Source: Dryococelus australis (Eukaryota > Arthropoda > Insecta > Phasmatodea > Phasmatidae). Taken from it: a stretch of 64,000 nt of DNA. The notes under the pieces were generated by a model, which was given only the letters and a program-made list of their open reading frames with translations, was not told the DNA's origin and searched no databases. Every line of letters begins with the position of its first letter. The first letter of the stretch is position 1. Positions 12,885 to 54,329 of the stretch are shown piece after piece. The stretch covers positions 143,304,457-143,368,456 of the forward strand of contig CM056994.1 in assembly GCA_029891345.1 (NCBI GenBank), in the 5' to 3' direction. The translations under genes were made by a program, and so were the position numbers.

Positions 12885-13023
12885 AAATGAATAAAAACAA
12901 TAGTCTTTAATACAATTGATCTTTATGTCACACACTTGTCAAAAAATACACAATATTACATATACTCAATCAAATTCTCCATTCAACAAAACTATTTCCT
13001 ATAGTTTTATTTTATAAATATTA

Positions 13024-13770
13024 TTATGAGCAGTCAAGGCACTCCGATTCGCATACGCAACATAACAATTAACAGATTGATGCATCTTATATGAAGTGCT
13101 GAACATACAGTTACTAGCTTCACGTTGTCTGGCACTAAAGCTAGTTGCAAATGTTTTGAGGCAATATTTTCATTCGCTTCCCGATGATAAACAAACACTG
13201 CCTTTACACTTCTTCTTTGGCATATACTGGTTATCACTGTGGGTAAACACAGCATAGCACTTATCACAGTGGAACGCTTTTTATGCTGGACTGAACAAGT
13301 AATAGCTATGTTCATATCGGAGTGAATTACAAATTTGGCAAAATGTATTTCCACACTAACAACATCCTTACCATATAGCTTGAACAGACTCTTCAGAAAC
13401 CCTTGCTGTTAACGACGCGGACAGTGTTACACATGGTGAGTCTTCAGCCATCTTCATATAATAGCAGAGTATGCTATCGCAATAATAACATCGAATCCGT
13501 ATTGCTTGTAGAGACTCTTCAGATACACTTTTTGACGAAGTTGTTGGTGTTACAAATGGTAAGTCTCTAACCGATGATTCCATATTCATACTGTAGTAGA
13601 GTACACGGTCGTAGTAGATGATTCCACTCGAAAGATCTGCTTTGCACCACGCTCACTGGCGAACTGACATCCGTTTATACTTGATGATTGCTTATATGCT
13701 GTTTTCACAACAGAACAATTGATACACAGACTAATTTTTTGGGTTAAAGTGATACAGCAAAGTCTCATCT
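13024..13770 (-). pseudogene. C2H2 zinc-finger-like gene, left-arm copy (broken)
   Basis: This is the mirror copy of the frames at 15392 to 16123. On the minus strand the N-terminal part (13768 to 13586) has CINCSVVKTAYKQSS and QFASERGAKQ. The middle (13589 to 13368) has two copies of a module ending SEESLQAIR or SEESVQAIW. The C-terminal part (13354 to 13034) is shifted out of the zinc-finger frame, but in other frames it keeps FHCDKCYAVF-type and SVNCYVAYANRSALT-type fragments matching the right arm. At least two frame disruptions separate the parts. The gene family is unknown to me; a DNA-binding role is inferred only from the finger-like spacing in the sister copy. Confidence 0.5.
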
Positions 13771-14181
13771 CACTCGAACTCAGTCAGAGTAAGAGAGCTC
13801 ACACTACAACAACATGCAGACTGCGAATGGATCAGAGAGAGCTCAGGCTCGCTTATATAGACTCGCTTTCCTCCCACCGCAACATCCATCAGTTTCCCAA
13901 AATATATCTGACAACATCTCCTAGAATGTGATATCACTGCCTTCCATTAGACTTCCTTGAAAACCCTATAAACATGAGAGACGTGAAAACCTACTTATAA
14001 ATTGCATTGTTATGTACTGTTAACAATACAGAACCAACAGTTTATGTTAGACATCTAGACTGTCTCAACATATTTTTGAAAATGATGTATCTAAGTCTCA
14101 AGTCACTCGAACTCAATCAGAGAAAGACGAACAGCAATGAAACCATCTCGTCTGTCTCAATATATGTTTGAAAATTTGTTT

Positions 14182-14264
14182 CCATTTATGATATTCGAAC
14201 CCATGTTCCCCTACAAGAAACCGAACCTTAAATCCATCGTCTTAGACCGCTCGAACAACCTGTC
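14182..14264 (-). ncRNA. tRNA-Leu(UAA)-like module, left arm
   Basis: Read on the minus strand it starts GACAGGTT. TTCGAGCGGTCTAAGAC follows (A-box region, typical of long-variable-arm leucine tRNAs), then an anticodon loop TTTAAGG implying anticodon UAA, then a long variable region, then GGGTTCGAATATC (B box). The anticodon stem pairs only partly and the acceptor 3' strand is poor, so I call it a tRNA relic or tRNA-derived module. It is better preserved than its mirror copy at 14863. Confidence 0.6.
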
Positions 14265-14474
14265 AATTTGTATTAGTGTGGAGAATTTCAGAACAAGATT
14301 TAAATTGAAAAGTGCTAACCTTAGCCCGGAATGACTTCAGAGAACCTTAACCTTTCTTACCATCTCGTTCAAAAACTACTGTATAAAACAAAATAAACAT
14401 AATTTTTCTAGAAATAGCAGAAAAAATCCAGGGAGCATTCTGCGGAAACACAAAACACATTCAACACATAATAA

Positions 14475-14640
14475 AAGATGTTATATATAAGAGAGTAATA
14501 TGCATACTTATATGTATGATAATAACTAATGTACATAATTATATATAAGATAGGAATATGCAAACATATATATACTTAATTGTATATAAGATAGGAATAT
14601 ACATAGTTGTATAAGTCATGATTTCTTCTGTGGTGAATAT
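14475..14640. repeat. Loop region with AT-rich direct repeats
   Basis: The centre of the large inverted repeat. TATATAAGATAGGAATAT recurs at about 14542 and 14583, with a related TATATAAGAGAGTAATAT at about 14483. No coding content. Confidence 0.7.
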
Positions 14641-14862
14641 GTGTTTGTGTTTTCTCAGACTTATCCCATTCCGCGAAGGTCTCACATTGAACCTGGATTT
14701 TTTCTACTATTTTCTGAAACGACTATGTTGCTTTTGTTTTGAACAGTAGATTTTGAACGAAACGGTAAGAAATGTTTATGGTTCGATAATGTCATCCAAT
14801 GTTAAGGTAGGCGCTTTTCAATATAATAACTTGTTGTGAAATTTTGAACACTAATACAAATT

Positions 14863-14948
14863 GACAGGTTGGTCGAGCAGTCTAAGACAATGGATTTAAT
14901 ATTAGGTTTCTTGTTAGGGGAGCGTGGATTCGACTCTCATAACCGGAC
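14863..14948 (+). ncRNA. tRNA-Leu-like module, right arm (degenerate)
   Basis: GACAGGTTGGTCGAGCAGTC, then TAAGACA, mirrors the left-arm module. The anticodon loop region reads ATTTAAT and the stem is broken. The B box is GTGGATTCGACTC, a weaker match than on the left. It lies within the right arm and points away from the centre, towards the zinc-finger-like frames. It is not expected to be a working tRNA. Confidence 0.5.
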
Positions 14949-15391
14949 AAAATTTTCAAGCATATATTGAGTCAGACGAGATGGTTTCATTCGCAGTTCG
15001 TCTGTCTTTGATTGAGTTCGAGTGACTTGAAACTTAGCTACATCATTTTCAGACATGTAGGAACAGTCGAGATGTTTAACATAAATTGTTGGTTCTGTAT
15101 TGTTAACAGTATATAACACTGCAATATGTAAGTAGGTTTTCACGTCTCCTATGTTTATGGGTTTTAAAATCAAGTCTTACTGTTACAGACATAACTCATT
15201 CTAATAGATGTTGTCTGATATTTCGAGAAACTGATGGGTGTTGTAGTGGGTGGAAAGCGAGGTTATATAGACTCCTGGGCTGTTTCTCGTTCATTCGCAG
15301 TTTGTAGATCTTTGTAGTAAGATCTTTTTTTCTCTGACTGAGTTCGAATGAGTTGTGACTTCACTAAATAATTTCAGACCTAAAATGCAGT

Positions 15392-15622
15392 ATGTGTATC
15401 GATTGTTCTGTTCTGAAATCCGTATATAAGCAAACATCATGTAAAAATAGAAGTCAGTTTGCCAGCGAGCGTGGCGAAAAAGCAGATCGTTCGAGTAGAA
15501 TCATATATTACGATCGTGTACACCAGTACAATATAAATACAGAATCATCAGTCGTAGACTTACTATCTGTAACACCAACAGTATCATCAACAGCAAGTGT
15601 CTCTCAAAAGTCTCTAAAATAA
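15392..15622 (+). CDS. Uncharacterised 76-aa frame upstream of zinc-finger ORF
   Basis: Unrecognised protein, MCIDCSVLKSVYKQ to SVSQKSLK. Its frame is conserved, with different substitutions, in the left arm (CINCSVVKTAYKQSS; QFASERG; SVxDLxxVTPT). This supports a once-coding sequence. The C-terminal 26 residues contain the same D-L-x-x-V-T-x-x-x-S-x-T-A-x-V-S/Y-E module that recurs at the start of the next frame. It is probably the 5' part of the gene whose 3' part is at 15668 to 16123, separated by a stop and about 45 nt, or by an intron that I cannot prove. Confidence 0.45.
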   Translation: MCIDCSVLKSVYKQTSCKNRSQFASERGEKADRSSRIIYYDRVHQYNINTESSVVDLLSVTPTVSSTASVSQKSLK

Positions 15623-15667
15623 ATATAGTATTAATGTTAATATTGAGATCGCATACTCTGAGATTAT

Positions 15668-16123
15668 ATGGAGATAGCTAAAGACTTACATTATGTAACA
15701 CAGTCAACTTCGTTGACAGCAAGGGTTTATGAAGAGTCTTTACAAGCTATACGTTATGAATGTTGTTATTGTGTAAATACATATAGTAAAATTTTTTATG
15801 CATGCCGACATGAACATAGTCATTGCTTGTTCAGCCCAGCATACAATTTGTTCCACTGTGATAAGTGCGATGCTGTGTTAAACCGCAGTGATAACCAGTG
15901 CAGGTATACGAAGTGTAAATGCAGTGTTTGTCGACCATCGAGAAGTGAGTGCAAGTATTGCGTCAAGGCATTCACAACTATCTCTAACACTAGACAGCAT
16001 GAAGTTGGAAACTCTATGATCAGCACTTCATATAACATATATCCATGTGTCAATTGCTGTGTTGTTTATGCGAATCCGAGTGCCTTGACTAATCATAAAA
16101 AGATACGTACTATTAAATTATAG
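15668..16123 (+). CDS. C2H2 zinc-finger-like protein, right-arm copy
   Basis: Open for 151 residues. After a module ending YEESLQAIR comes a canonical C2H2 finger: CCYC, 12 residues, then HEHSH (C-x2-C-x12-H-x3-H), at about residues 32 to 52. Three finger-like repeats follow. CDKC lacks clear histidines. CKYC-x12-H is followed by EVGN in place of the last His. CVNC-x12-H is followed by KKIR in place of the last His. The spacer phrases SPAYNLFHC and STSYNIYPC mark tandem finger units. The family is unknown to me. A nucleic-acid-binding role follows only from the C2H2 pattern. Three of four fingers appear damaged, so the protein is probably decaying despite the open frame. Confidence 0.6.
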   Translation: MEIAKDLHYVTQSTSLTARVYEESLQAIRYECCYCVNTYSKIFYACRHEHSHCLFSPAYNLFHCDKCDAVLNRSDNQCRYTKCKCSVCRPSRSECKYCVKAFTTISNTRQHEVGNSMISTSYNIYPCVNCCVVYANPSALTNHKKIRTIKL

Positions 16124-16236
16124 CAAATATTTTTTGAATGGAGATTATGTTTGAGTGTGTGTATTATTACGTATTTTTAACAAGTGTGTGAAATAAAGAT
16201 AAAGTGTATGGAAGACTATTTTCTGTATTCATCCCG

Positions 16237-17968: not shown

Positions 17969-18096
17969 TTCCACGGAAATTCTCTGTGTGTTCAGATCTG
18001 GCTGGAGGATTGGCAAAACGCGACTTTTGAGGAATCCGCACAGGACATCATCGCAAACCGACAGATCGGGCGAGTGGGCAGGCCATGGAATGTCTC
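17969..18096 (-). pseudogene. Fragment of mariner-like transposase (inverted copy)
   Basis: A stretch of about 128 bp is nearly identical to the reverse complement of 19557 to 19692. Shared phrases include CCACTCGCCCGATCTGTCGG and TGCGATGATGTCCTGTGCGG when read on the minus strand. It covers only the block around the third acidic residue of the transposase. It is a broken copy lying about 1.5 kb from the larger element and in opposite orientation. Confidence 0.85.
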
Positions 18097-19286
18097 ATAA
18101 AGCATAAAATACAAATAAATATATATAATATAAGACATTTACACAACTACGTGAAATTGAACACTAGATAAATTTTAAGTGGGTTTCAATAGTAATTGTT
18201 AATTTTCTTTGTAAATTTTTTTTTTTTTATAATTTCAAAATTGAGAATATTTTCTTAACCATATGACATAGTTTGCAATACAGGAGTGAGAATAAGGTTT
18301 GTTGATGATAGCGTTAATAATATGTAAGAACTATACACAAAACAAGTAATAAAAAAATGGTTTGTTTAGCGCATGCTGCTCTAGCGAGCTGGCTTGAGCT
18401 ATCGTCTGGGACATGGCCGGAGTGAGAGTGATGAGGGTTAATGAGCGCCGTGCTCGGCAAACAATGTGCGACATATCTGTTCAGCGGGGTAGAGACGAGA
18501 CCAGTTGTCTTGCATTGTGTTTGGAGTATGCTTACACGTTATATATTGCTACGCCTAAGCCAAAACAGTATAATATAAATTAGTTTACACCTAATATTTA
18601 AATGATAAAACAAAGGAAAGTAACAGAGAGTCTTTAATATTAAAATAATTTTTTTAATAAATGTGTTACGAGCTGAGGTAGAATAAAATGTAGCTTATGA
18701 TAAATACTGCTTACTAAAATGGGGAGAAGAAATGTATCTAAGTATAGGTTTGTATAGTAATACCAAGGCCTGGCAGGTCAACAATTGTTGCATTCAGCTA
18801 CATTATTGGATCGGTGGTCATGGAACGAAGCAGCGGAGACATTGCTTGTTTGGTGCGTCAGACAAATAGTATTTGTGCATTTATAACCCTAACACAATTT
18901 TGGTTGATAATATTTTTTGTTTATAATACATATATTTTAAAATGAGTTTTAAAATATGTGTGTGAACAGTTACAACAGGAGCTGTAGTTCGGTCGGCTTT
19001 CAATAGTAGCAGGAACGCACTGCGCAAGCTCCGAGTTGAATTTTCCTATTTAAGCCTGATCGCACACCCTTCCGAAATAAAGTAAAAGAGGAAAACAAGA
19101 CTTATTTTGACGGAACATATCAGACAGTCTTTATATAGGCTATAATAAGACGAAATGTGAAATTTCCTTATACTAACTGAGATGCTGGGAAACATTATTG
19201 AACATGTAAAACAGTCTTTATTTAAAAAGACATAAAAAATGAGAGTTATGCAATTCACACAGTTATACTAAGAGTGAAATATTATA
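18097..19286. other. Spacer, nothing recognised
   Basis: AT-rich, with GC-richer patches at about 18370 to 18520 and 18960 to 19040. No family recognised. Confidence 0.5.
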
Positions 19287-19938
19287 CTGTTGTCCCAGCG
19301 TTCACCTACCATTTTGACTCATTTAGTACTCGTGTGTCCCTAGGGTAGGGGTGGCGTGATACTGTCAGATCTTTCTGGCGAGTGATGACATTGTCATTAA
19401 GCATGGAGCGGTGGTCATCTGCACACCGCGAATTATGTGACCTAACATCGACCTTGGAAATGTTTAATTTCATTAATATGGAGCCACAGCACACACCGCT
19501 CGCCTGTCTATCGACATTTTACAAACAATGTTTCAGCATCGAATAATTTCGCTCTTTGGAGACATTCTATGGCCTGCCCACTCGCCCGATCTGTCGGTTT
19601 GCGATGATGTCCTGTGCGGATTCCTCAAAAGTCGGGTTTTGCCAATCCACCAGCCAGATCTGAACACACTCAAACAGAGAATTTCCGCGGAAATTAACGC
19701 TGTACCGGCAGCAGCATTGTTGCGGGTTATGCAAAACCTGCTGTATCGAATGCGTGAATATGTGAACCTGGACAGGCGTTATCTTACTGGAGTAATATTT
19801 AAGAAATGATTCTGTTGTGTGTATTGGTACAAAAGGCAGACATGTATCATTCGGTTTTCTGTAACGCCGATAAATATTCTCTCTGCTTTAACATACTTCA
19901 CGTGTTTCACAATGGTAGGTGAACGCTAAAACATCCTG
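19287..19938 (+). mobile_element. Decayed TA-flanked mariner-like element
   Basis: The ends carry inverted AGCGTTCACCTACCATT, on the left at about 19297 and as its complement near 19911 to 19927. TA dinucleotides sit directly outside both ends (19285 and 19939), as expected for an IS630/Tc1-mariner insertion. The interior holds the C-terminal part of a transposase. At 652 bp it is about half the usual length of an autonomous element, so it is internally deleted. Confidence 0.75.
19528..19809 (+). pseudogene. Mariner-like transposase, C-terminal remnant (93 codons open)
   Basis: The block ILWPAHSPDLSVCDDVLCGF corresponds to the WPPRSPDLT.xD.FLWG signature of insect IS630/Tc1-mariner transposases. 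It is followed by LKSRVLPIHQPDLNTLKQRI and a helical tail to a stop. Only the third catalytic region is covered, and the N-terminal DNA-binding and first catalytic regions are gone. It sits inside the TIR-bounded element at 19287 to 19938, so it cannot encode an active enzyme. Confidence 0.8.
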
Positions 19939-20521: not shown

Positions 20522-20960
20522 TAATTTACTATGTTTTTTTTTTTTTTTCAACAATTTCAACCTTTTTTTTCTCGCATTTCGGACCAATTCAGAGCTTCAT
20601 CCATGATTCTCATAATATTTTTTCGTAATTTACTCTGATTTTCCAATAATTTCAAGCTTTTTCTCCGAATTTCAAGCTTTTTTCCTCCAAAATCCAGTTT
20701 TTCCTCGATTTTCTAATTAGAAAACAGACTCAAAAATTAAGCAAAATCGCGTCAAATCAATTAAAATTTTGACCCATATTCTATGATTTTCCCCGAATTT
20801 CACCTTTTTCCTCCAATACCAAACTTTTTTCCTCGAATTTCAACCCAAAAAAAATCCTGCACGAATAGTGAACGCATATATCGTTCACAAAAATTGTAAA
20901 AATCATGACAATTTGAACCAAATCAAGTAAAATAATATAAAATAAAGTGAAATATTAAAA
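20522..20960. repeat. Polinton left terminal inverted repeat
   Basis: Matches the right TIR over its length. Shared landmarks include AATTTCAACCTTTTT, GCAAAATCGC.TCAAAT, TTTTGACCCA, ATTTCAACCCAAAAAAA, TCCTGCA.GAATAGTGAA and ATCGTTCACAAA. It has internal sub-repeats of the type TTTTTTCGTAATTTACT followed by CAAxAATTTCAA, at about 20514 and 20608. Confidence 0.9.
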
Positions 20961-20985
20961 ATATAATTCGCTGAATTTATAAATT

Positions 20986-21438: not shown

Positions 21439-22766
21439 AAACAATTTGTTGTTTCTTCCATCTAATAAAAGAAAAATTTATATATCTTCAGTAATTCCTC
21501 CTTTCTAATAATCATGTTAGGTTCCTTTTGATAACTAATACAACATTAGAAACTGTTTTTGCTTGAACATCTTTATTGCAATCAACACAAATTTTAATGT
21601 TTTTTTTTTCCTTTAACTACAGTTTTTTTCTATATAAACAATAATTAACATTTGTTTCCGCCCAAAAAATTAATAATATTTGATATTGCCTTCGAAATTT
21701 ACAGTTGGTTTATAATAAGTTAATCATTTCTACGTATTGCATCTAGTTTTTGTTTTTGGATTTCTAAAATCACTATAAGCAAGGAACATTTTATGACAAA
21801 GACCATTTTTAAGTTCTAGATTCCTATTTTCTTTTGGAAAAAATTCATTTATTCTTAATTTTTAATATAAATATTTTTCATATTGCAATGGTCAAACATA
21901 GAAGCGTGGACATAATGTTCAGCGCAATTTTTCTATTGTTTTGAAAGCCTACAAATACCAAATCGGGCTTGTCAAATTGTAAATGATTAATCTGATCTTT
22001 TATATCAAAGTTAAATCATGGACTTCTTTTTCTAAAAATTGCCAATAATTAAAACTACGAGATATTTTAGGATGTCTGAATATTTTTCTTTTAATTTCAT
22101 TTGCTGTGTTATATTTGTAATCAACAATAGGCTACACAATTTCTAATTTTCGAATAACAACTTTACCTGAATCAGCATAGCTTTGCTGAACTGCACCATC
22201 TGCATCTTTTGTTACATAAAGATATTAACAATTGTTATCAGATTAATTTCTAAAAAAAGTAATGTTATAACCGTCTTTCCAATAAATTTCATTGTTGTCA
22301 CGAATAACACCAAATAAATATCTCAGAGGATACATTATTTCATTTGTTTTATTACTATGGACAGATTTGACTGTATATTTATTATCAACACCAGAAAATT
22401 CTAAATGATTTTGTTCACTTGGTGATCTTAATAAAGCATTCATTATTGTTGGTGTTATACCTGCATTATCAACTGCCTCAACAATATTTCCATGATTATA
22501 AATTTCTACTCTAGAAAACTGAAAAGGAAAAAAGTTCTAACAAACATCGACATTATCTAATTGTGCAAATTTTTCCTCATTTCCTTCTTTATCTCTTTTT
22601 AGTAATCTATATTGCTCAAAAACATAAGCATAATTTGGGAAAGAATTCAATCTCCTATACGAATTACAAATAGAACAATTTTATTGTAAACATTCAAATT
22701 CCCCTTAGTATGGTCAGTTGTAGGAAAAGTTTGCCTCTCAAACCTCTAGATACTTTTATATCTCAT
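21439..22766 (-). pseudogene. Polinton major capsid protein (double jelly-roll type), broken
   Basis: The start at 22766 (MRYKSI, then a stop, then RFERQTFPTTDHTKGNLNVY) matches the way insect Polinton capsid proteins begin, as I remember them. A clear 66-codon stretch follows at 22443 to 22243, from NALLRSPSEQNHLEFSGVD to PLRYLFGVIRDN. Several stops and frameshifts interrupt the rest. The family forms the hexameric shell of Polinton/adintovirus-like particles by structural homology to adenovirus hexon. A second copy at 51258 to 52514 shares the same landmarks at high DNA similarity, which gives independent support. The 3' end is approximate and is set by where similarity to that copy fades. 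Confidence 0.8.
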
Positions 22767-23199: not shown

Positions 23200-23648
23200 A
23201 AGGTCAAAATGTTTATATAAATATATATATTAACAAAAGGACTTTGTAAATTGTTAGCAAAAGAAAATTAAGGAGATCTTAAAGGTAAATTCACTGTTGA
23301 TGACTATGAAAATTATATAGACATTGTTAAAGTAACAAATACCATGTATCAAGATTATGATCCTGATAATCAAGTCAATTCAAAAAAAGGTTAGAAGGTC
23401 AAAAATATAATTGAACCAATTTATCATAAGTTTATAAATAAATCTAGTTCAACATCAGTGTCAAACACACCCTAAATAATGATTTCTCCATGAACGCCTA
23501 TATCTGAAGAAGGTATAAATAATACAATAGTTTACCAAAAGCATATGTTTGGATGGATGACTTTAGACATTTAATTAATAGATTATTAGGCATTCACCAT
23601 AAAGAAAATGCTGGAAATAACAATTATTACAATACAATTGTAAGTATA
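23200..23648 (+). pseudogene. Uncharacterised Polinton protein remnant
   Basis: Across one frame with several stops the text reads GKFTVDDYENYIDIVKVTN, then TMYQDYDPDNQVN, and later IIEPIYHKFIN. After a frame change it continues YVWMDDFRHLINRLLGIHH and ENAGNNNYYN. This order resembles an uncharacterised insect Polinton-associated protein family that I recall only vaguely. It lies directly upstream of the PLA2-like gene on the same strand. No catalytic motif was seen. Function unknown. Confidence 0.4.
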
Positions 23649-24095
23649 ATGAATATTGAAAGTAATAAATTTTCTAATTTTGTAATAAATAATAATCGAA
23701 AAGGTACTCCATATCTTATAAGAGATTTAAATATAATTGCACATACATTTTGTAGTTCTGAACATCATGGTAAAGGTATAATAAATTGTGCATTAAACAA
23801 TTTAAATTTACCAGAGATGCATCTGCCATGTTATTCAATGCGGTCCATTTACAAGATTAAATAGAAGATTGGAAAAAGGAGATGTTGGAATGAATAAATT
23901 AGATGAAGCATGTAAATATCACGATATAGCTTGTAGAGATAATTAAGATTAATAATTTAGACATTATGCATACAAAATTTTACAAAAGGAAGCAAAAGAA
24001 ATTATGTTAAATAAAAGTACTCCGATTGGTGAAAAAATTAATTCTGCGGCTGTTGCTTCAACTATGTTTGCAAAAAGAAAATCAGGATGGAATTA
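23649..24095 (+). pseudogene. Phospholipase A2-like (parvoviral VP1-type) Polinton protein, one frameshift
   Basis: After KGTPYLIRDLNIIAHTF and LPEMHLP, a shift of frame near 23830 leads into QCGPFTRLNRRLEKGDVGMN and LDEACKYHDIAC. The CGPxT Ca-loop-like stretch and the HD dyad are hallmarks of the parvovirus-type phospholipase A2 domain. In that family the domain is used in virions to breach membranes. The Tyr usually found a few residues after HD is Cys here. The 3' part has stops, then IGEKINSAAVASTMFAKRK. It sits next to other virion genes, so a minor capsid role is inferred. This copy is non-functional. Confidence 0.65.
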
Positions 24096-25823: not shown

Positions 25824-26718
25824 ATGGAAAATTAATTTAAAAAAGTGAATGTTCTATATATAAATCTAATAAATCAAGAAAAAAATTTGCCCAATATAAG
25901 AGAAGTGATAATAAATGAATTATATAAGTCAGCAAGAATACATTTTCCAAGTAGTAATGTAATTTTGTATGGTATTGATGAATTATGGCAAATTGATCTT
26001 GTTGAAATGGATACACATAATTTAAAAGGTATATCAAATATAAATAATGCATAGATGTTATTGATGTGTTTTTTCAAAATATGCATTTGCAATACCTATA
26101 AAAGTTAAAAGAGCTAAAAATGTAGCATATATTTTAGAATGTATATCGATAAAAAGAAAACCACTTAATTTTCAGCTGGCTCAGAATTCCATAATATAAT
26201 ATTTAAATAACTTAAGAAATAATATAATATCAATCAGTATTAAACATTCAGCAAACTTAATGCCAGTGTTGTAGAAAGATATAATTGCACAATGAAGAAT
26301 AAAGTATGGAAGAAATTTGCTTTAAATGACAATTATAAATGGGTAAATATATTCGAAGATTTTGTTAAAGAATACAACAATATAATACATATAGCTATTA
26401 ACATACAATCAATTGAAGTTAATAAGAAAAACGAGAAAAATTCTATCAAATAGAATTATTTAAAAGGGTTATACTGCTAATTGGACAAAAGAATTGTTTA
26501 CTATTTTTGAGGTTTTTAATTATGATGTGCGAACTTACAAACTGAAATACAACAATGGTGAAGAAATGAAAGGTAGTTTTTTTTAATTCAAAATTATGAA
26601 AACTGACTATATTGATGAATATTTGGTCGAAAAAGTTTTAAATACTTAAGGTAATAAAATTGATTTAAAATGGTAAGGTTTTTATAACTCACATGATTCT
26701 TGGATAAATAAAAAATAG
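25824..26718 (+). pseudogene. Polinton integrase (DDE, retroviral type) with C-terminal chromodomain, broken
   Basis: MEN, then a stop, then KNLPNIREVIINELYKSAR. ELWQIDLVEMD holds the first catalytic Asp. The second Asp lies in a VIDVF-like stretch near 26060, followed by SKYAFAIPIKVKRA after a slip in a T-run. ASVVERYNCTMKNKVWKKF holds the catalytic Glu. The tail (DYIDEYLVEKVLN, then stop-interrupted GNKIDLKW and HDSWINKK) is a chromodomain, which binds methylated histone tails and may guide insertion. Integrase acts on the element ends. Stops and at least two frameshifts inactivate this copy although the D, D and E residues are still recognisable. Confidence 0.85.
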
Positions 26719-27359: not shown

Positions 27360-28090
27360 TTTGTATAAATGCATTACATATTTATTCTTATATTCATCAT
27401 GTTTATAATTGAAGGAATAACATCTTTAAATACCCATGGTTTAAAACCTAAGTAATTATACAATGCAAACTAAAAATAAGTTCACATAAACCAGGCTCAC
27501 TATTATAAACTGCTTTGCTATTGTTATAAGAGAGGTGGGATGAATTTTTCATCCCGCCTATTTCTGATAAAATTTCTTATATTTCAATTAAATTGGCTTT
27601 TGTAATGCTTCTTTTGGATTTGAATAGTCTAAAAATTTTCCTTTAAACACAAGGATTATTTTCCTCATCAATAAACATAGAAACTTGTTTACCGTTATAA
27701 ATAAGTTTGTTATTATTTATGTCTAGAATTGACGCCCTTTTTATATGTGAATTAGCACAAGAGAAATTAGCAGGTAGAAAATGTTTCTTACAAGTATTCT
27801 TTTTTAATAAATAAATGAGAAATTTTTTATTAATTATAATTGTTTTAATGCAGAATAACTAGGGTTTAAAGATTTTAATTTTCTAAATCATTAACAATAT
27901 ATTTCATTTTATTTATAATTTTATTATATGAGTCACACTTATTATATGATATACCATTTATTATATGATATACACTTTATAAACAAGGATATGTAATTTT
28001 TACAAACTCTAAGTTTTTTTTCCTTCTAAATTCATCTTATTCCATGAAATTTTAATTCGTAAAGAAATACAGTAAACAATTTGTATATCT
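27360..28090 (-). pseudogene. Decayed Polinton coding sequence, unidentified
   Basis: Scattered minus-strand peptide-like text in several frames, such as SHLSYNNSKAVYNSEPGLCE and YKHDEYKNKYVMHLYK, separated by many stops. It is probably one or two small genes. I cannot assign a family. A GC-rich hairpin at 27534 to 27558 lies within this text. Confidence 0.3.
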
Positions 28091-28099
28091 AAAAGCAGA

Positions 28100-29259
28100 G
28101 ACTATCTAGTTGGCAAATGAGGAAATTGATTCCTAATTAGACCATTTTCTTTTATTTGGAAATAACATTAATCTATTTCTGCATTAAATGCATTTGTTGT
28201 TAAATAAATGTTGTTATCAACAAACCAAACTAACTCGACCAAAGGTCTTTGGTGTATAAAAAATTATTACAATCGCTTGGTAAAAACCGAAACTTTTCCA
28301 TGATCAAAATTGGCGTATTGATTATTTTCTTATCATTTAAGACTTTTATCCAAACATTTATATTGTAAACAATATACAAATCACTATCAATAATAAAACT
28401 TTTTTTTTGTATCTTTGCTTTTACATAAATTAATTTGTTCACTATCATTACCATTTAAATTATTTTGTGTGGGTGAGCCATACAAGTTATATAAGTTTTG
28501 TATGTTTTGAATGTCGTCTGGTTGCAAATCAAATAAATCATTGTTAAGAAGTGGATACATGATTGCATTTTTATCATTTGTATGTTGTAAACCCAATGAC
28601 TGGCGGATTTCGTAGATCAAAACAGATAATAAATTAACTTTATTTTCGGGAGGGCTTTTCTCCCTGTATTATGAAAATATTCTTGTTTATTGATTTGAAT
28701 TTCAACAAGACTATTTTTTTCATTTAGAAAAAATGCATGAACTAGTGCACTACCATGCGGAAATAATGTATAAGGTTAAATTCCACGTAATCTCTGATAC
28801 CTAAGTTGTTTTTGTTTATAAGATAGAACTATGTCCGAAGATTGCATATCGTAAACAAATTTCAAATGTGTGTATTTTTGCCAAATGTTAAATGCCTCTT
28901 CAGCTAACTTTGTAATTGATATTTTTTGCATATGAAAAATTCCATTTTATTATTTTTATTCCATTTGTTGGTGGTTGAGTAGCTACCGAGTATATTGTCT
29001 TTAACATTACATCTTGCTTATTGATTAAATTAAGTATTTCATCATCGATTTTACTATCAATTGAAGAAATGTTTTGATATTCTGGAATTATTTTTAAAGA
29101 ATATTAAAATTTTTTCTTTATACATTTTTAAAGTGAATTTAAATCACCTTCTAAATATCCATATTTATTTCAAAAATTTATAACACATTCTGTCCGATTC
29201 TCTATTTGAACAGCACAAAATTTATATTTGTGATAGCAAGAGTAATTATACGTCTTCAT
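28100..29259 (-). pseudogene. Matrix metalloproteinase-like gene captured by the Polinton (broken)
   Basis: Starts MKTYNYSCYHKYKF. Prodomain-like text INFxNKYGYLEGDLNS is followed, after a frameshift, by ARCNVKD, matching the PRCGVPD cysteine switch of matrixins. The catalytic domain reads LAEEAFNIWQKYTHLKFVY, then SSDIVLSYK, then HGSALVHAFF, then NLLSVLIYEIRQSLGLQH, then KNAIMYPLL, then LQPDDIQNIQNLY. The zinc motif HExxHxxGxxH is damaged: YEIRQSLGLQH keeps only the Glu and the last His. A hemopexin-like tail follows (FIIDSDLYIVYNINVWIKVL, then EKFRFLPSD). Matrixins cleave extracellular matrix proteins. The ATG overlaps the TGA of the ATPase gene upstream, so it was part of the element and not a later insertion. 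Confidence 0.8.
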
Positions 29260-30045
29260 TTATAAACAAAATATTTTATGTATAATAAAATACTGTATTT
29301 TATTTCTGTACTTCCTTTTAAATTTTTTTTACTCAAATCCAATGTAATATAGCCAAAATCTCCATTCCAACACTTCGTAAAAATCTATTTAACATTCTCA
29401 CAAATCATGTCCCCACCAGCAAAATCGTTATAAATGTAGTTTAATTTCGTATAATTTTGTCTAAATATACACAGAAAATTCGTATTGTCCCTTACAAATT
29501 GTTTTGGCACTCTCGAATATTTTTGTTCTAAACAAAATACATCAATATTTTCCTGTCTCCACATAGTAAAATATTCACGAATTTCATCTTGATTGTTTCA
29601 AATAACTTCGCCAAATGAACCCAAAGAATAATTTTCACATTGATCAAAGGGTATGATTTCTATATTATTATAAAAGAGTATGCCACTTTTCTTTCATTTT
29701 TAGATTTTTGCATAAAAATAAAAATAATTTCGTAATTGTATATATTTGGGATAATTCAAACTTTTTCAGGAAACACATAATTTATTTAAATATATCCAAC
29801 AATTTATATAAATAAAATGTGTCATAAAATTGGTTTTTCCACTATTAATAGCACATAATTTATTTATATATATCCAACAATTTATGTAAATAAAATGGGT
29901 CTAAAATTGGTTTTTCCACTATTACTAGCACATACTATTATGTATCTTATATTGTGAGGCAAAAGTTCACCATTCTTCTTATTTTTAGGATTTTGTTCGG
30001 CAATTAAAACACCGACACCCAAAACAACTTTTTTTCATTTAATAA
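29256..30045 (-). pseudogene. Polinton packaging ATPase (FtsK/HerA-like), broken
   Basis: VGVLIAEQNPKNKKNGELLP leads into a P-loop, CASNSGKTNF, then stops. A second, tandemly duplicated P-loop follows. Downstream NNIEIIPFDQCENYSLGSFG (Walker B region, normally IMIFDD-like and poorly preserved), DEIREYFTMWRQENIDVFCL, SRVPKQFVRDNTNFLCIFRQ and CWNGDFGYITLDL fit the Polinton ATPase, which pumps DNA into capsids. It stops at 29256 in an ATGA overlap with the metalloproteinase gene and starts close to, and divergent from, the penton gene at 30062. Confidence 0.8.
29774..29928. repeat. Tandem duplication (78 + 77 bp) across the ATPase P-loop
   Basis: Unit 1 (29774 to 29851) and unit 2 (29852 to 29928) both run from CACATAATTTATTT to TTTCCACTATTA-TAG and differ at a few positions. 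Each unit includes the minus-strand codons for the Walker A stretch (NSGKTNF). Confidence 0.92.
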
Positions 30046-30061
30046 CATATTTTTGTGATAA

Positions 30062-30768
30062 ATGGAGAAAAAATTATTTATGTTAACAAATAAATGTTCC
30101 CTACTAAAGAATAAATTTCACTATGACATCATTCATAATGATAACTCGATTGCTTTGATTAGTTTTCATACGAAATTTTTAACTCCTAATATAGACAACA
30201 ATACTATAATGACACTTAAAAAATTGAGTGCTGCTGTTGATAAAAATGAAGTTATCACTATTCCTAAAGCACAATACGATATTGAATGTTTAAAAGTAAC
30301 TAAAAATTCGTTACAACAATGTTAAACTATTAAAATTGAATTAGCATCAGACATTGTAAAAACAGAATATCGATTAAATCAAAGTTTGATAATAAATTTG
30401 ATGATGGTATATCCGATATTCTTGATTTTGAGATAAATATGACTATTGAAAAAGCCAAATTTGTAGTAGGTACTAAATAACCCAATTTTAATTAGTTTAA
30501 AATAATAAATATTCACTGTAATTTAGCATACAGTATGTTTATAAAATATTATGAATCTAATAATTAACAAACAAACATAATTGCTAGTTTTCTGTCAAAA
30601 CAATATTTAGTTTTAGAGATTATATTATTTATGAGCATGCGTATGCAATTTTTTATAAAAAAAATAATGAAATTTTCATATTGTTTCAGTAATTAGAGAT
30701 CAAATGGTAAACTGATTCATTTTGATTGTTCTGATATCGATATTGTTTTGAAAATAAAATATGTTTAA
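30062..30768 (+). pseudogene. Polinton penton-like minor capsid protein, broken
   Basis: The open first third starts MEKKLFMLTNKCSLLK. It has NDNSIALISFHTKFLTPNID and NEVITIPKAQYDIECLK, which match the N-terminal jelly-roll region of insect Polinton minor capsid proteins as I know them. After stops, INIHCNLAYS and the final NGKLIHFDCSDIDIVLKIK recall the family's C-terminal strand segment. The protein forms capsid vertices. It is divergent from the ATPase gene (about 15 bp between starts) and convergent with the polymerase gene, the usual Polinton arrangement. Confidence 0.7.
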
Positions 30769-30812: not shown

Positions 30813-33800
30813 TTAATAACACCACAGTAATGTGTTTATAACATCATCTGTTTCATTCAAAATCATATGTTTGCCATAGACAAATTTAAACAATTTTGCC
30901 ATGTATATTTATTCACAAAATGTAGGTTTTCTTATCACTTGTACTCATACTGTTTTTTATAATCATGTTTTTTTTTTAGTTTGAGTACGAAATCACTCAT
31001 CAATTTCATATTCAATTGTACAGCATTTTCATGATTTAAAGTGAAGCCTTTAATTTTTGTGTTGTTTTGCCAACAATATTTCATATCCATAGCTTTTTTG
31101 GACCAGTACTCATCCAATTTATAACACAATAATTTTTTCCCATATTCGTCTGTCCATTCACCTAACATACATCAATTTTCAACAGTATTTATACCATCAT
31201 CAATGTAAACTATGTATTTGTATCAAAATATACTATTTTATTACCTAATCTATTAAACATTTCATATAATCTTAATTTTGCATTTGAATTTTTTAAAAGT
31301 TGCCATATATACATTCATTTCTATTCTATCGTCTAATAACAATCCATATCGAGTTGGATCAGTGAAATTTTTGGTTTGTGTTATATTTGGTATCTTTCCA
31401 AATTTTCTCCACAGTGAGTTTAAAGAAATTTTAGCAACAGCTTGTTTTCCAGGATTGTGATCAATAATTTCAATTTTTAAAACGATTTTATGTTGTTTCT
31501 TTATAACACGAATTTATTCTTCTTTTTATTTGAACTCTTCTTTCCAAGGACTAGTCTCTTATTTCATTTTCATAAATGTTATAATATAATTTCAGAACAA
31601 GTTATTACTTCTTTGTTTCAAATGCCAAATTTAATGAATTTTAAGTAATTTGTAATCTTTATCGATAGCTTTATTTAATTTTAATGTAGTCCATGTTCCA
31701 TTTATTGCTCTTTCTTTATCACTATCTTTACACTCTCCTTTGTTCTCTACAACACATTTTGAACATAAAGTAAACTATAGTTTTTCTAATTTAATTGGAA
31801 TTACTATATTATAATAATTTCGTGGTGGTAAAACTTTACATTTCATTAATCCTAACCAATTTTCATTGTAATTTTTTGGAATAAATTTTTTAATAGGCTG
31901 TTCAACAGGATAATAATCATAAAACATCACTGTTGTATATAAACTACATATACCTAAATATCTTAATTATTTTCCTGAAACATTTATTTTGTAGCATTTG
32001 TTCTACCTCCAAACAATGCATCTATTGGTTGTAATGGTTCTATTACATTTTTAGTTTTTCCTTAATTATTTTCGAAGCAAATATTTTTTTTTTCATTTTC
32101 AAGCACGCATTTCCCTTACTTTGCAACTATTTTGTCTAAAAATTGTTGTTCGATTGTTCATTTTAGTATACAAGTCATCCATGCATATATAGTTGCATTT
32201 ACTTATAGTATCAGGAGAATAACAATCAGGACAACCATGCCAAATACATCCATGAAATTGATGTATTGTTTTATATTTTTCATCATAGCCATTAACTTTT
32301 GCTCCTCAAATAGTTACTCCTCCGCCATTTAATGCATGAATGTATTCAACCACGACATTGAAGATTTACTAAACATTTTTTTTATCGTTAACTACAGCAT
32401 TATTTTTCGCAAGACATTTTGATCTATAAATAGCCATACAAACAATAGTTATTGTTGTATAACGAAAAGGATATATATATATATATGCTATTTATAAAAA
32501 AAGTTCTCTAAATTTAAGACAACCGCACCTTAAAATATCAACGTCGGAATAACAATATTCAGCAAGTTCCTTTCATCCAACTATTATTGGAAATGTTGCA
32601 AGACTTCCTTGAATAAAGTTTATACTATCAATGAATTTCATATTTAGACTCGGTATTTTAAGTCGCATAATTTTTTAACCTAGATGTATTGTTTGAGGTT
32701 TTATCCTTTTTCTAACACAATAAAGTAAAATAAGATATGAATCGTAGCCTTTGGAAATATGTGCAATAAATATGTAACCTTTATTTTCTTCAGCTATTGT
32801 CTATTCGCAAAACTCAGCATTTGTTTTAAAATGTATTTTGTTACCTTTAATATGATATACACATATAAAATTTGGAGTATGAAAACCAGTACATTGTGTT
32901 GCTTCGTAGTAAAAAAAGTTGTATTTTTCGATTTAAGAACAATCCATATATTTTTATTGTGTTTACCATTAGAAATACTGACTTTAATACAAAATCCAAC
33001 TTTTTTTGTTGTCTTTCTTGCATAACATTCATGTTCATCATTTTTCTCAAGTTTTTTAGAATTCTAACGTTTGGCATAGTCACATTTGTTTTTTTTTTTT
33101 TTTTCAAACTTATTTTGTTGCACTCTTTACACTTATAAGCAGTCTTACACACATCATCGTGATTAGTAAAACATTTTTTCCCAAAACAATATCTATTACC
33201 ATTTGTGGCGATATATTCTAATACGGTCTTCGCTTTCCGAAACTTTTTAGTGTTGTGGTGTTTTGCAAAAAGTTCATATATTTTTATTATTTTTATCACA
33301 GTCATGTTGATCTTTATTATAGTATAGTTTGTCACACTTTTTACAATAATAAACACTACCTAAAAATGCCTTCATACTCTTAATTACATCGTAATGTTCA
33401 CCGTGTAAATACAAATAAATAGATGTTGAATTGTTTAACCAGAGTGTATAATTTAATTGAAATGTGCAGCTGTAACAACTTATTTTGAACATTTAGAAAA
33501 TTTTCTGCATCCATAATATCACCTAAACTAAAACCAATTTCACAACTTTTTCCCATTCTTTTGCGAAGTTCATGAGCCAAATTTCCTTGTAATTTACTTC
33601 CTTTTCTAATCAAAATAAGTTCATTATTCGTTCATTCTCTATCCAAAATGATATTAGATTCAGATGTTAAACCTGCAATTATTGCTCTGGGGCTACACAA
33701 ATTATCATCATTGTTAATTTTATTAATGCATTGTTTTGCTTTTATATCTTTAGCTAAATTATCAATTTTTTTTACCTCTTGCGCCATTACCACTGGGTAC

Positions 33801-34330
33801 TTTGAAAACATCAATATCGAAAGTAGTTTCATTAATGTCTACATTTTCATTCGATGTAATTATTCTTTCAATTTTATTAAGTAATTTTCAGGCGTTTAAT
33901 TTGTAATTTCTTGCAGCCGAAATAGTATGGTGAAAATTTTGATTATTTGCATATATTCTCATTTGATCACCTAGTTTATAACCAGCTAATTTTTTTTACA
34001 GATTTCATTGTTGCATGAACAGCATTTCGAACAGCATTAGTTTTTTTTTTATCGAATTACACTGTAAATTGTTTATAGGAATGCCGTATTTTCTTTGCCA
34101 AATAATTTTGAAGTTGTCAATTAAATTACGACAAATTACACGAATTTCAAATGGATTTCTCCTTTCCGCACGCTGATTTAAAAGTTTTGTTTAAAAGGTA
34201 TATTTGTTCTTTTTATTTTCTTCATTAATTTCAGACTTTGAAATAGTTAAATTTTGGTTACTTTTAATTTTTAGTTTTACATATATGTGATTAGAAAGAG
34301 GAAATAATTATTTTTAATGATTTTTTTTAT
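30813..34330 (-). pseudogene. Protein-primed DNA polymerase B (pPolB) of Polinton, broken
   Basis: From N to C: ERRNPFEIRVICRNLIDNFK (about 34130); KAKQCINKINNDDNLCSPRA (33740); IRKGSKLQGNLAHELRKRMG (33600); a Cys-rich segment with YYCKKCDKLYYNKDQHDC (33330); the exonuclease region (about 32900), continued by KGYDSYLILLYC; FHGCIWHGCPDCYSP (about 32250); DALFGGRTNATK (32010), highly characteristic; NPGKQAVAKISLNSLWRKFG (31430); VYFDTNT in place of YxDTDS (31220); GEWTDEYGKKLL (31160); and a C-terminal FVYGKHMIL to the stop at 30813. The enzyme replicates the element from protein-primed ends. The motif C second Asp is Asn, and many stops and frameshifts occur. Confidence 0.9.
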
Positions 34331-34347
34331 TTTCTTTTAATTACATT

Positions 34348-34536
34348 TTAATATGAAAGGGGTAAATTTGAAAAGTTAATTTTTCTTTGTTGAATTATAA
34401 TAAAGGTTTTAATAGCTGTAATCAAATCAGCTTTCTTTAAATTGTACCAATATTTAATTTTAAAATCTCTGCTAATGTATCTCATATCCCTCACTCTCCT
34501 ATTGTTCAACTCAACTGCTAGATTGTTCGCTGACAT
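34348..34536 (-). CDS. SAP-like 62-aa ORF at the head of the polymerase gene
   Basis: Open for 62 codons: MSANNLAVELNNRRVRDMRY, then DFKIKYWYNLKKADLITAI. The helix pattern with a K-x-D-L-I motif resembles a SAP/Rho-N-type nucleic-acid-binding fold. It could be the N-terminus of pPolB cut off by a stop or a separate small gene. It is one of the few intact frames in this Polinton. Confidence 0.45.
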   Translation of the reverse strand: MSANNLAVELNNRRVRDMRYISRDFKIKYWYNLKKADLITAIKTFIIIQQRKINFSNLPLSY

Positions 34537-34759
34537 TTTAGCTGTATTTGTAAAGGAAAAAATTTATAAATAAAATGTAAAAATTGATATAATGGATAAT
34601 GATGAAAAAGTGTTTAAATTATTGGAAAATTGTATTTAACTTCTTATTATGACGATAGTGCTTAATATATTCACTAAAACATATTTTACATTTGGTTGAG
34701 TGTTTCTCCTTACTATTTTCATTAGGAGAAAATAATTACATATGTTTATTCTAATTTTA

Positions 34760-35580: not shown

Positions 35581-35609
35581 ATTCTATTGATTTGAATCTA
35601 TTAATTATC

Positions 35610-36038
35610 TTTTGTTAGTATTTCACTTGATTAAGCTAATTTTACTTGATTTTGGTTTAAATTTGCATGATTTTTATTATCTTTGTGAACGATATTTGCA
35701 TTCACTATTCATGCAGGATTTTTTTGGGTTGAAATTCGAAGAAAAGGCTTGTTTTTAGAGGAAAAAAGCACGAAATTCGAGGAAAAATAATGGAGTGTGG
35801 GTCAAAATTGTATTTATTTGATGCGATTTTGCGTAGTTTTAAGTCTGTTTTTTAATTAAAAAATCGAAGGAAAAATTTGATTTTGGAAGAAACAAGCTTG
35901 AAATGATTGAAAAATCAATGTGAATTACGAAAAAAATAAATAAATAAATAAATTTTAAAAATCATGGAATTGAAGTTCTAATTCGGTTAGAAATACGAGG
36001 AAAAAGGTTGAAATTATTGGAGAAAAACATACTAAACT
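35610..36038. repeat. Polinton right terminal inverted repeat
   Basis: Reverse-complement partner of the left TIR. It contains GAACGATATTTGCATTCACT, AGGATTTTTTTGGGTTGAAA, TGGGTCAAAATTG, GATGCGATTTTGCG and, near the outer end, AAAAGGTTGAAATTATTGG. The outermost matched bases are ACATACTAAACT. An AAATAAATAA run near 35940 is specific to this side. Confidence 0.9.
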
Positions 36039-39540: not shown

Positions 39541-39863
39541 GTACTTGTAAGTTTGAATTCACTTGTTCTTCTCCTATTATATAATTTTATTTATTCGTAG
39601 GCGTACTGTCGACAGCATAATATTCAGCAGAAATAGTGTTTTCCTTAACTATTATAAAAAAAAATTATTATGTTTTCATTCATTTGTAGTTATTTACTGT
39701 TCCTGGACCGAACCTGACTATTTTGTTTATTAGCACTAAATTATTGAAATTTATAGTTATTATAACCCGCTTGTATCTGGCTACTGGTAGTTCGTTGTAG
39801 TGACTATTATTATAATTGCTGCTTTGCAACTAAGTTTCTTTATGTTATTGTCACAGTGGAATA

Positions 39864-40184
39864 GTGCCACCATGTGAAAATAATGTGTTATCCCAAACAC
39901 GAGCCATGTCTCATGGGACCAAAAAAAATGTTGCTTCACGCATTTTACAACAATGTCAGGCTAGGGTCACCTGTGGAGGGCGGAATTTTCTTGCACTTGT
40001 CGACACTGGTGCCACACATTGTTTCATAGGTGTTTATTTTCTTCATTGCCTTCTAGATAAAGAAATAGTTTCCAAAGGGAGCATCGGCTTCATGCTGGGC
40101 AAGTGTTTGTGTATCGCCAATGGCGGTATTATAACATGTAATTTGGTAGTCGATCTCCATTTTAAAATAGGGAGATTCTCCTAG
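39864..40184 (+). pseudogene. Ty3/gypsy aspartic protease
   Basis: LALVDTGATHCFIG is the retropepsin active-site motif (D-T-G-A) preceded by the usual hydrophobic strand. LCIANGGIITCNLVVDL is consistent with the flap and second half. The open frame is 106 codons, then a stop. The next part (ending near 40250 with LILGLQ-like text in another frame) fits the C-terminal ILG segment. The enzyme would cleave Gag-Pol. The gene is isolated by the LINE upstream and decayed RT downstream. Confidence 0.75.
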
Positions 40185-40379
40185 ACGTTCGCGTTTTTGG
40201 TTCTTCCCCGTCTCATCCGTAATTTGATCTTGGGGCTACAAATTTTAGGAAAATCTAATGCCGTGGTTAACGTCGATGATGGTTATCTATCTTTCGGCTT
40301 TTATCCACGTATACGAGTAGGTCTCCATGTCAACCAAAGTCAGATAATTCTCATGTCTACCCATTTCTTGTGATAATTC

Positions 40380-41200
40380 CAGACAGAAAGATTTTCAGCT
40401 CCAGTTATTAGAGTTAAGAGAGGAATTCAGTGACAACATTCTTCCAAATCTGGGAAGTGCGATGCACTCCATATAAATTCTCTCTAACCGATGGCATCCG
40501 GTTCGAGGCCAACAGTTTAAGAGCACATCACCTTAACTCTGTGCATTTCGAGAAAGTATAGATCAACTGTTGGCTTCCGAGTAATAGTCCGTCAACCTCC
40601 GATTATTGCTCATCTGGATTTCATGTTAGAAAAAAATATAGTGAAAAATATCGTTAGAGGTAAACCATTCTTTAGATATAAAAATATACATAAATACCAT
40701 ATCCCTGCCGAGCATTGATTGCGCGCTTCAACACCTGGAAAAGGCCAGTAAATGTTCCGTTTTTGATCTCAATAATAGCTTCCATCAATGTTTGTTGACC
40801 CCTCGTGAGGAATTCACCACTTTAGTATACCATGGAGTCAGTTGAATTCACAAGGATACCCATGGCTCCAATTTGGAAGCAGCATTGTCCATGCCCTGGA
40901 TCATGTACTAACCGAATATAGTTCAAATTCGTATTTTAATTACATAGATGGCATATCGTCTGCAGTGATGACTGGGAATCCATTTAGTGCATTTGAGGCA
41001 GGTTTAACAAAATGTGTGAGTTGGGCTTAATATGAACCCTGCAAATGTAACACTATAGGGACCCGTAAAATTTAGTACTTAGGATGTATGCTCAGTGAAG
41101 GCCGATTATTGATTGCCGAAGACAGTATGGCTCCCATTTTGGGTTTCCCACATCCTAAGACCTTAACAAGGCGTTCACAAATTTCTGGTCATAATTGACT
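40380..41200 (+). pseudogene. Ty3/gypsy reverse transcriptase, heavily decayed
   Basis: Fragments in shifting frames: DCALQHLEKASKCSVFDLNN, then SFHQCLLTPREEFTTLVY (first catalytic Asp region, near 40770); NSYFNYIDG (near 40940), where the YxDD box has lost its second Asp; and KYLGCMLSEGRLLIAED (near 41085). Order and spacing match gypsy-class RT. Multiple stops. Non-functional. Confidence 0.75.
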
Positions 41201-41204
41201 ATTA

Positions 41205-41770
41205 TGCCCGATTTATTAATCATTATTTCGAACTGGCTGCTCCTGTGAATAAATTAAAGAAAAAAGGCGTTGAGTTTCAGTGGGAAAGTGAGCAAGAGGT
41301 AGCCTGTAACACTCTTAAAGAGAAGTTGTCTTCACCTTCTGTCATTCATCTTTCCGATTTTTCGAAAAGATTTGTCGTTCAGGTGGATACTTCGACACTG
41401 GCATTGGGAGCAGATTTATGATGGGGGGGGGGGGGGGGTGGGGGGAGATGACAACCTTGCTCCGATTGCTTTTGCCAGTCTTACCCTTATGGACGCGGAA
41501 CACAATTTCTGAATCTATGAAAAGGAAACACTGGCTTCTATTAACAGCCTGGAGGAGTTCGCATCTTACATCGAACATGACAAATGAGATTTGCATTCGG
41601 ACAACCAGGCGCTCAGCTGGGTCCTAAATAATTTGCAACATCTAGGGAAGCTGGATTGATGGGTATTAAGATTATCCAGGTTTCGCTTTCAGGTCCATCA
41701 TTTCCGGGGTTCAGACAATCAGGTTAACGATGCGCTTTCACGCATATTCGATCCTGACGATTTAGAGATG
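41205..41770 (+). pseudogene. Ty3/gypsy RNase H region with poly-G expansion
   Basis: After RT come LAAPVNKLKKKGVEFQW and LSSPSVIHLSDFSKRFVVQV (start of the RNase H-like domain), then a poly-G tract at about 41423 to 41445 that breaks the frame. Later frames have LHSDNQALSWVLNNLQHLGK and FRFQVHHFRGSDNQVNDALS. These are standard gypsy RNase H landmarks. The G tract sits where the first strand continues, probably by slippage. Confidence 0.75.
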
Positions 41771-41781
41771 GAATCAGTAAG

Positions 41782-42147
41782 TTGCCCGTCATTTCAATAA
41801 ATCTGATTCAAGGGTTTCCAGAATTTTTTGTAAAACTGCAACAGGTGCGAAGGGATAATGAGCACTGTTCCAAGGTGGTTGATGATTTAAATGCGGGTGA
41901 AGTCCTTCCCTACTTGGTAGCGAAGGATATCTTGTGTAGCATGGAGGAAAATGGACGGGCATGCAAAATTGTAGTCCCTCTGTCTCTGCGGTCTATGGTG
42001 CATCACGACTCTTTTTTTGGCGGTCACCAAGGAGTTAGTCGAACTTTCCACAAAATTACAACTCACTTTGCCTGGCCGACCCTGAAGAATGAGGTCTATG
42101 AATTAGTGAAATTTGAGTCACCTGCGTCAAATCTAAAGAAGAATTAA
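41782..42147 (+). pseudogene. Ty3/gypsy integrase N-terminus, 3'-truncated
   Basis: LRSMVHHDSFFGGHQGVSRT and KITTHFAWPTLKNEVYELV correspond to the H2C2 zinc-binding start of gypsy integrases. The two expected cysteines and the whole DDE core are absent: similarity stops at about 42110 and the frame then runs into unrelated codons and a stop. No 3' LTR was recognised downstream, so the element lost its 3' part. Confidence 0.75.
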
Positions 42148-54310: not shown

Positions 54311-54329
54311 CTATATAATTAAAATTACG

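Follow-up and report, generated by a model that had tools for sequence, protein, structure and literature searches.

A matrix metalloproteinase as a probable accessory gene of a Polinton lineage in Dryococelus australis

In the insect Dryococelus australis, a window of 64,000 nucleotides (the whole stretch of DNA analysed here; assembly GCA_029891345.1, contig CM056994.1, positions 143,304,457 to 143,368,456 of the forward strand) holds an old, dead Polinton, an adintovirus-like integrating DNA virus or transposon, with a decayed matrix metalloproteinase (MMP) gene inside it. Intact relatives of this gene occur in other Polintons of the same genome, and we consider it probable that a Polinton lineage carries a secreted-type MMP as a regular, selected accessory gene whose product would cut extracellular matrix. 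The gene, its domains, its position inside Polintons, its copy number, the conservation of its catalytic residues and purifying selection in one of two families of elements (family A) are directly supported by the results below.

The MMP gene in the window

The decayed gene lies on the minus strand in pieces from about 29259 to 27878. The motifs AIMYP, LQPDDIQNIQNLY and YEIRQSLGLQH all fall within one stop-free piece, 28390-28668, which matches Pfam Peptidase_M10 with an expectation value (E) of 1.3e-12 and 48.3 bits (cut-off 24; query 28387-28665) over profile positions 103-158 of 159. The piece also matches MMPs of known structure (best E 4.5e-7, with 104 distinct sequences up to E 1), and a protein search with it returned 19 candidates, none reaching E 0.01. 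The first catalytic piece matches M10 below the cut-off (E 9e-4, 19.6 bits), and the middle catalytic piece alone gave no Pfam match. Judged by these motifs and matches, the window protease is a matrixin, as the preliminary description had proposed from motifs that are indeed present on the minus strand inside an element bounded by terminal inverted repeats (TIRs).

That description had also placed the gene at 28100 to 29259, with a hemopexin-like tail. The interval does hold the MMP; the tail pieces align with the hemopexin part of the relatives and the gene therefore extends beyond 28100, to about 27878. The tail itself stands on alignment to relatives, while the tested piece 28233-28454 gave no match to the Pfam hemopexin profile. 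Judged against HExxHxxGxxH, two of the three zinc histidines have been lost, in agreement with the earlier observation, and several frame changes and stops interrupt the gene, which is spanned by no open reading frame.

Intact copies in the same genome

An M10 search of the 3.4-Gb genome gave 1850 first-look candidates. Scores were obtained for 150 of them; every one lay above the cut-off, and 12 had an open frame of 524 amino acids. The two such frames that were checked, P0001 (locus L007) and P0003 (L001), both contain M10, Hemopexin and PG_binding domains (for P0001, E 3.2e-33, 5.4e-6 and 2.2e-5, respectively). Thus the intact copies with prodomain, catalytic and hemopexin domains, to which the preliminary description had looked, do exist in related Polintons. 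P0001 has the cysteine switch PRCGVPD and a zinc site and Met-turn reading HEIGHALGIHH...MYP, and the intact relatives show the characters of an M10A matrixin: HExxHxxGxxH with a Met-turn, a PRCGxPD switch and a four-blade hemopexin domain. A 33-base pattern from the zinc site occurs 206 times in the genome with up to 3 mismatches (30 occurrences exact), against 0 for the control.

An AlphaFold2 model from a 16-row alignment (mean predicted local distance difference test score 79, predicted template modelling score 0.50) has a four-blade propeller and a C-terminal helix at 504-522. Its best match in the PDB by Foldseek is human proMMP-1 (1su3; E 3.4e-30, 26% identity). Whole-chain superposition on proMMP-1 is poor (template modelling (TM) scores 0.36/0.45, root-mean-square deviation 19) and single domains superpose with TM of about 0.8, so that the domain arrangement is not settled by the model.

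Position of the gene among Polinton genes

In the 15 best-ranked loci the C-terminus of PolB always adjoins the MMP, and the C-terminus of the capsid gene faces it in 14, L005 being without a capsid match. Among 20 further loci hand-picked across ranks 17-150, the MMP lies among Polinton genes in 19; the remaining one, L073, is a multi-exon host MMP, the sole host MMP gene recognised. Altogether, Polinton genes stand beside the MMP in 34 of the 35 loci examined (of the 150 scored), and no lone copy was seen.

Two layouts recur. Family A (16 of the 20 further loci, which share the layout of the best-ranked ones) has the order PolB, MMP, capsid, integrase and a protein with a phospholipase A2 (PLA2) domain. 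Within the stretch compared, L080 has only PolB and MMP, integrase is absent from L087, and the PLA2 protein is absent from L087, L076 and L078. Family B (3 of the 20: L085, L088 and L089) has the order PolB, minor capsid protein (mCP), ATPase, MMP and integrase; integrase is absent from the stretch in L089 and PolB in L085. The window element has the family B layout, with the MMP after the ATPase, and, a few stray matches apart, is collinear with L085 (about 24.6-31.8 kb), L088 (about 24.7-30.8 kb) and L089 (about 27.6-30.8 kb). As a separate observation, a family-A-like PolB stands beside the mCP-ATPase-MMP module in L088 and L089 (best segments 43% and 47%), and none was seen in the window or in L085, where about 1.1 kb beyond mCP is covered; this suggests PolB replacement.

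The neighbouring genes were named from open frames of the relatives. Pfam matches were obtained for the capsid protein (P0125, PF21738, E 1e-27), the ATPase (P0128, Pox_A32), the integrase (P0126, rve, E 2e-11, with a Chromo match under the cut-off) and the PLA2-domain protein (P0127, L017:4185-5573, PF08398, E 3e-12). A phospholipase A2-like domain is likewise carried by parvovirus capsids. P0129 had no Pfam match and is taken from its position to be a putative minor-capsid-like protein. The PolB of family A (P0124) gave no polymerase match in Pfam and was named from database matches, including 'PolB [Ladona dragonfly adintovirus]'. An adenain-like frame in L017 has a weak Pfam match (E 0.023, under the cut-off).

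One family A copy was tested for its boundaries. The L007 copy is 15,426 bp long, has AGT...ACT ends and is flanked on both sides by the 6-bp target-site duplication (TSD) ATATTT; its TIRs are 96.7% identical over 570 bp, and 86-92% in another register of nested sub-repeats. These nested sub-repeats lie inside the TIRs (L016:4000-4744; L090, L091).

Relatives and phylogeny

P0001 had 139 database matches, of which 120 were listed. The first 72 listed (P0004-P0075) are 28-53% identical to it, and the named entries among them are all insect or 'collagenase [Ladona dragonfly adintovirus]', the rest being nameless. In a tree of 119 proteins (P0002, P0051, P0064 and P0072 having been dropped from 123), 71 rows (P0001, P0003 and 69 of P0004-P0075) form one clade with a Shimodaira-Hasegawa-like approximate likelihood ratio test support of 99, apart from vertebrate MMP28/MMP17 and from spider, coral and mosquito proteins. 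Of the clade proteins, 42 reach 470 amino acids or more; the zinc motif is kept in 36 of these and the switch (RCGxxD) in 40. MMP-like models of Schistocerca, Polyergus, Tribolium and Diabrotica (P0010, P0024, P0041, P0055 and others) fall within this clade and may be element genes; several 'host' MMP models in insect databases (e.g., Schistocerca, Polyergus) could then need to be read as such.

In a catalytic-domain tree built from 65 rows chosen by hand, a Polinton-type clade (48 rows) separates from the L073 host-exon clade (17 rows) with support of 100/99. The window piece, which fills only 37% of the alignment columns, groups with family B (100/98). Two constrained topologies, both chosen after the tree was seen, were compared by the approximately unbiased (AU) test: joining family A to the host gene was rejected (p-AU 0.025), and joining A and B was not (p-AU 0.49), although the tree itself does not unite them. 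One and two entries of an MMP into Polintons are therefore indistinguishable by these trees.

Searches of IMG/VR with the window piece, with P0001 and with the major capsid protein found nothing. A search with an alignment returned 50 loci (L020-L069) on 49 contigs with distant M10 domains (best segments 23-51% identical to P0001), in whose fetched flanks no match to seven other Polinton proteins was found.

Selection

Between two subfamilies of family A (L003, L072, L075, L076, L078-L084 and L087 versus L007/L016/L017), the pooled ratio of nonsynonymous to synonymous divergence (dN/dS) was 0.27 for the MMP (12 loci), 0.14 for PolB (12), 0.30 for the capsid gene (10) and 0.19 for integrase (9), values that come from 12 hand-picked loci sharing one divergence and hence not independent, and that are biased upward by decay after insertion and downward by a filter keeping matches of at least 60% identity. 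These ratios indicate that the MMP is under purifying selection in family A. A ratio of nonsynonymous to synonymous polymorphism (pN/pS) of 1.00 for the capsid gene (5 copies) was discarded, the rows having been compared unaligned with at least one seemingly out of register. Synonymous divergence between the same subfamilies was unequal among genes (PolB 0.86, MMP 0.32, capsid 0.44, integrase 0.49), which hints that Polinton lineages have exchanged genes.

Proposed role and alternative explanations

Secretion, activation, substrate and benefit to the element are what we infer beyond these results. The proMMP made by the element, with a putative signal peptide as well as its prodomain and cysteine switch, would be secreted and activated outside the cell, where it might cut proteins of the basal lamina or of other matrix; binding to substrates or surfaces may be steered by the hemopexin propeller and by the C-terminal helix typical of the clade. 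Virus-like particles could thereby pass out of or into tissues, the germ line among them, and so give rise to inherited insertions; the preliminary description had likewise proposed a passage of tissue barriers. A role in spread is suggested by analogy with the granulovirus MMP (PMC4192325). A tissue-dissolving protease that is conserved and under selection in high-copy Polintons is a testable candidate for germ-line entry and for movement between animals.

Several observations weigh against this reading. The window copy cannot work, two of its zinc ligands being lost, and many of the other MMP copies are broken. The N-terminus of P0001 is signal-like as judged by eye only. No full-length open MMP was seen in family B, so that selection was measured in family A only; there the identity filter favours low dN/dS, and young copies have a pN/pS of only 0.52 for the MMP (n = 8) and 0.53 for the PolB C-terminus (n = 11). 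The zinc motif is missing in 6 of the 42 long clade proteins. Finally, the trees, in which L073 is the one MMP gene recognised as belonging to the host, do not place the donor of the gene.

It is conceivable, if doubtful, that the insect Polintons of this clade are present or recent infectious viruses that breach basal laminae with their own MMP to reach the germ line. If true, this would explain why inherited copies come in bursts of hundreds and why genes of this clade are found in several orders of insects.

A different role is rather unlikely but is the strongest competitor: the MMP may be an element gene whose main task is to cleave secreted proteins of the host, either to weaken its defences or to change melanisation or signalling. 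MMPs cleave many secreted proteins, which counts for it. A complete hemopexin propeller and a collagenase-like fold are typical of matrix-acting MMPs, and both are present in the model, which speaks weakly for matrix proteins as the substrate instead. On the other side, according to PMC4192325, larval melanisation changed when a granulovirus MMP was expressed from a different baculovirus.

There is a small chance that the MMP works within the element's own life cycle, in the maturation or release of its particles, whether alongside the adenain-like protease or as its substitute. Family A keeps the MMP adjoining core genes, and the adenain-like frame of L017 is only weakly matched, both of which count for this; however, a separate protease-like frame is present, and a zymogen acting outside the cell is suggested by the cysteine switch together with the signal-like start of the protein. 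That the MMP is by now a domesticated host gene in this genome is very improbable: several open frames do persist, but the MMP has Polinton genes beside it in 34 of the 35 loci examined out of 150 scored, the exception being the ordinary host MMP. Hardly credible, and rejected here, is the insertion of a host retrocopy into the Polinton after the element itself, as a passenger (the alternative named in the preliminary description), for which the intronless state of the Polinton MMP and the host origin of animal MMPs might be cited, since the gene keeps its place by the same Polinton genes (15 of 15 loci and, in two layouts, 19 of 20; three other loci share the window layout), forms a single clade across many insects, is under purifying selection in family A, and stands apart in the tree from the intron-split host MMP.

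Features of the window

The window element is 15.5 kb long and bounded by TIRs of about 440 bp that are 79% identical (Table 1); its outer ends and a TSD were sought and could not be resolved. It holds 94 stop-free pieces with a length of 45 amino acids or more; 21 of them were run against Pfam, and piece 23806-23943 matched PF08398 under the cut-off (E 0.0011). With remains of capsid, minor-capsid-like, integrase, ATPase and PLA2 genes between TIRs, it is by its gene content a Polinton; rve integrase, packaging ATPase and double-jelly-roll capsid were each recognised by tblastn in the window and by Pfam in intact relatives. The stretch 30938-34563 matched none of 8 PolB-containing proteins compared, and is taken as a putative PolB of another type.

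Table 1. Features of the window element and its MMP gene (positions in the window; identity/aligned length in amino acids).
Feature	Positions	Strand	Evidence
Left TIR	20541..20968	+	79% inverted match to 35603-36027
Major capsid protein (double jelly roll) remains	21592..22766	-	tblastn with P0125, E 2e-68
PLA2-domain protein remains	23224..24090	+	tblastn with P0127, E 2e-50
rve integrase with chromodomain, remains	25893..26715	+	tblastn with P0126, E 8e-43
Last hemopexin repeat and tail (pieces 28012-28101, 27878-27976)	27878..28101	-	L088 E 1e-8, 4e-9; tblastn with P0001
Hemopexin-like piece	28233..28454	-	L085 E 5e-7; L088 E 3e-5
MMP zinc-site and Met-turn piece	28390..28668	-	L085 68%/81, E 3e-31; Pfam M10
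MMP catalytic middle piece	28620..28775	-	L088 60%/47, E 6e-15
MMP catalytic first piece	28779..28946	-	L085 77%/47, E 4e-23
MMP prodomain piece	28903..29103	-	L089 36%/56, E 1e-4; L088 48%/33, E 2e-5
Decayed cysteine-switch piece (ARCNVKD), other frame	28907..29017	-	L089 68%/22, E 2.8e-7
MMP N-terminal piece	29173..29259	-	L089 73%/15, E 6e-4; L085 69%/16, E 4e-4
Packaging ATPase remains	29325..30022	-	tblastn with P0128, E 4e-41
Minor-capsid-like protein remains	30071..30759	+	tblastn with P0129, E 5e-16
Probable PolB remains, other PolB type	30938..34563	-	HGCIWHGC at about 32254; YCKKC...HDC at about 33348
Right TIR	35603..36027	-	inverted match to left TIR

Other elements lie elsewhere in the window. 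Remains of a second Polinton capsid gene are found at 51325-52514 on the minus strand. A very long imperfect inverted repeat (12887-16232; arms of about 1.5 kb, 79%) holds two open reading frames that were tested without a Pfam match, and a small element at 17986-19669 with 111-bp inverted repeats (97%), mariner-like by eye, holds one that gave none either. Remains of long terminal repeat-type retroelements occur at 39834-42147 (a weak protease match and an integrase H2C2 piece) and at 53799-54857 (reverse transcriptase and RNase H pieces).

Comparison with known systems

The preliminary description had named no matrixin as known in the core Polinton set. Literature searches found no description of an MMP in Polintons, Mavericks or adintoviruses, although the founding adintovirus paper lay outside their coverage and may mention the gene. 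The 'collagenase' of the Ladona dragonfly adintovirus (P0016), a GenBank third-party annotation, is nevertheless a 43% identical MMP of the same M10 clade, so that the MMP-bearing kind of element is not wholly new; the PolB of that virus (P0178) shares 57% identity with the family A PolB across residues 640-1300 of the latter. The Ladona adintovirus is a single virus record, whereas many chromosomal copies, two gene positions and an estimate of selection are described here.

Polintons/Mavericks as described for vertebrates in the main text of PMC8097293 share the TIRs, 6-bp TSD, AGT/ACT ends and length of about 15 kb, as well as integrase, ATPase and capsid genes and, for family A, a PolB named from its database matches. 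Unlike them, the elements described here carry an MMP accessory gene; the string 'metalloprotein' does not occur in that main text. Betabaculoviruses (granuloviruses) offer another viral MMP of insects, in an unrelated virus group; no baculovirus name appears among the 120 listed matches of P0001, many of which are nameless. In PMC4192325, an MMP is said to be present in every betabaculovirus sequenced up to 2014, and the granulovirus enzyme is thought to be active in virus spread. With the secreted MMPs of animals such as proMMP-1, the Polinton MMP shares prodomain, switch, catalytic and hemopexin domains, and it differs from them in its low identity (about 26%), its lack of introns and its additional C-terminal helix.
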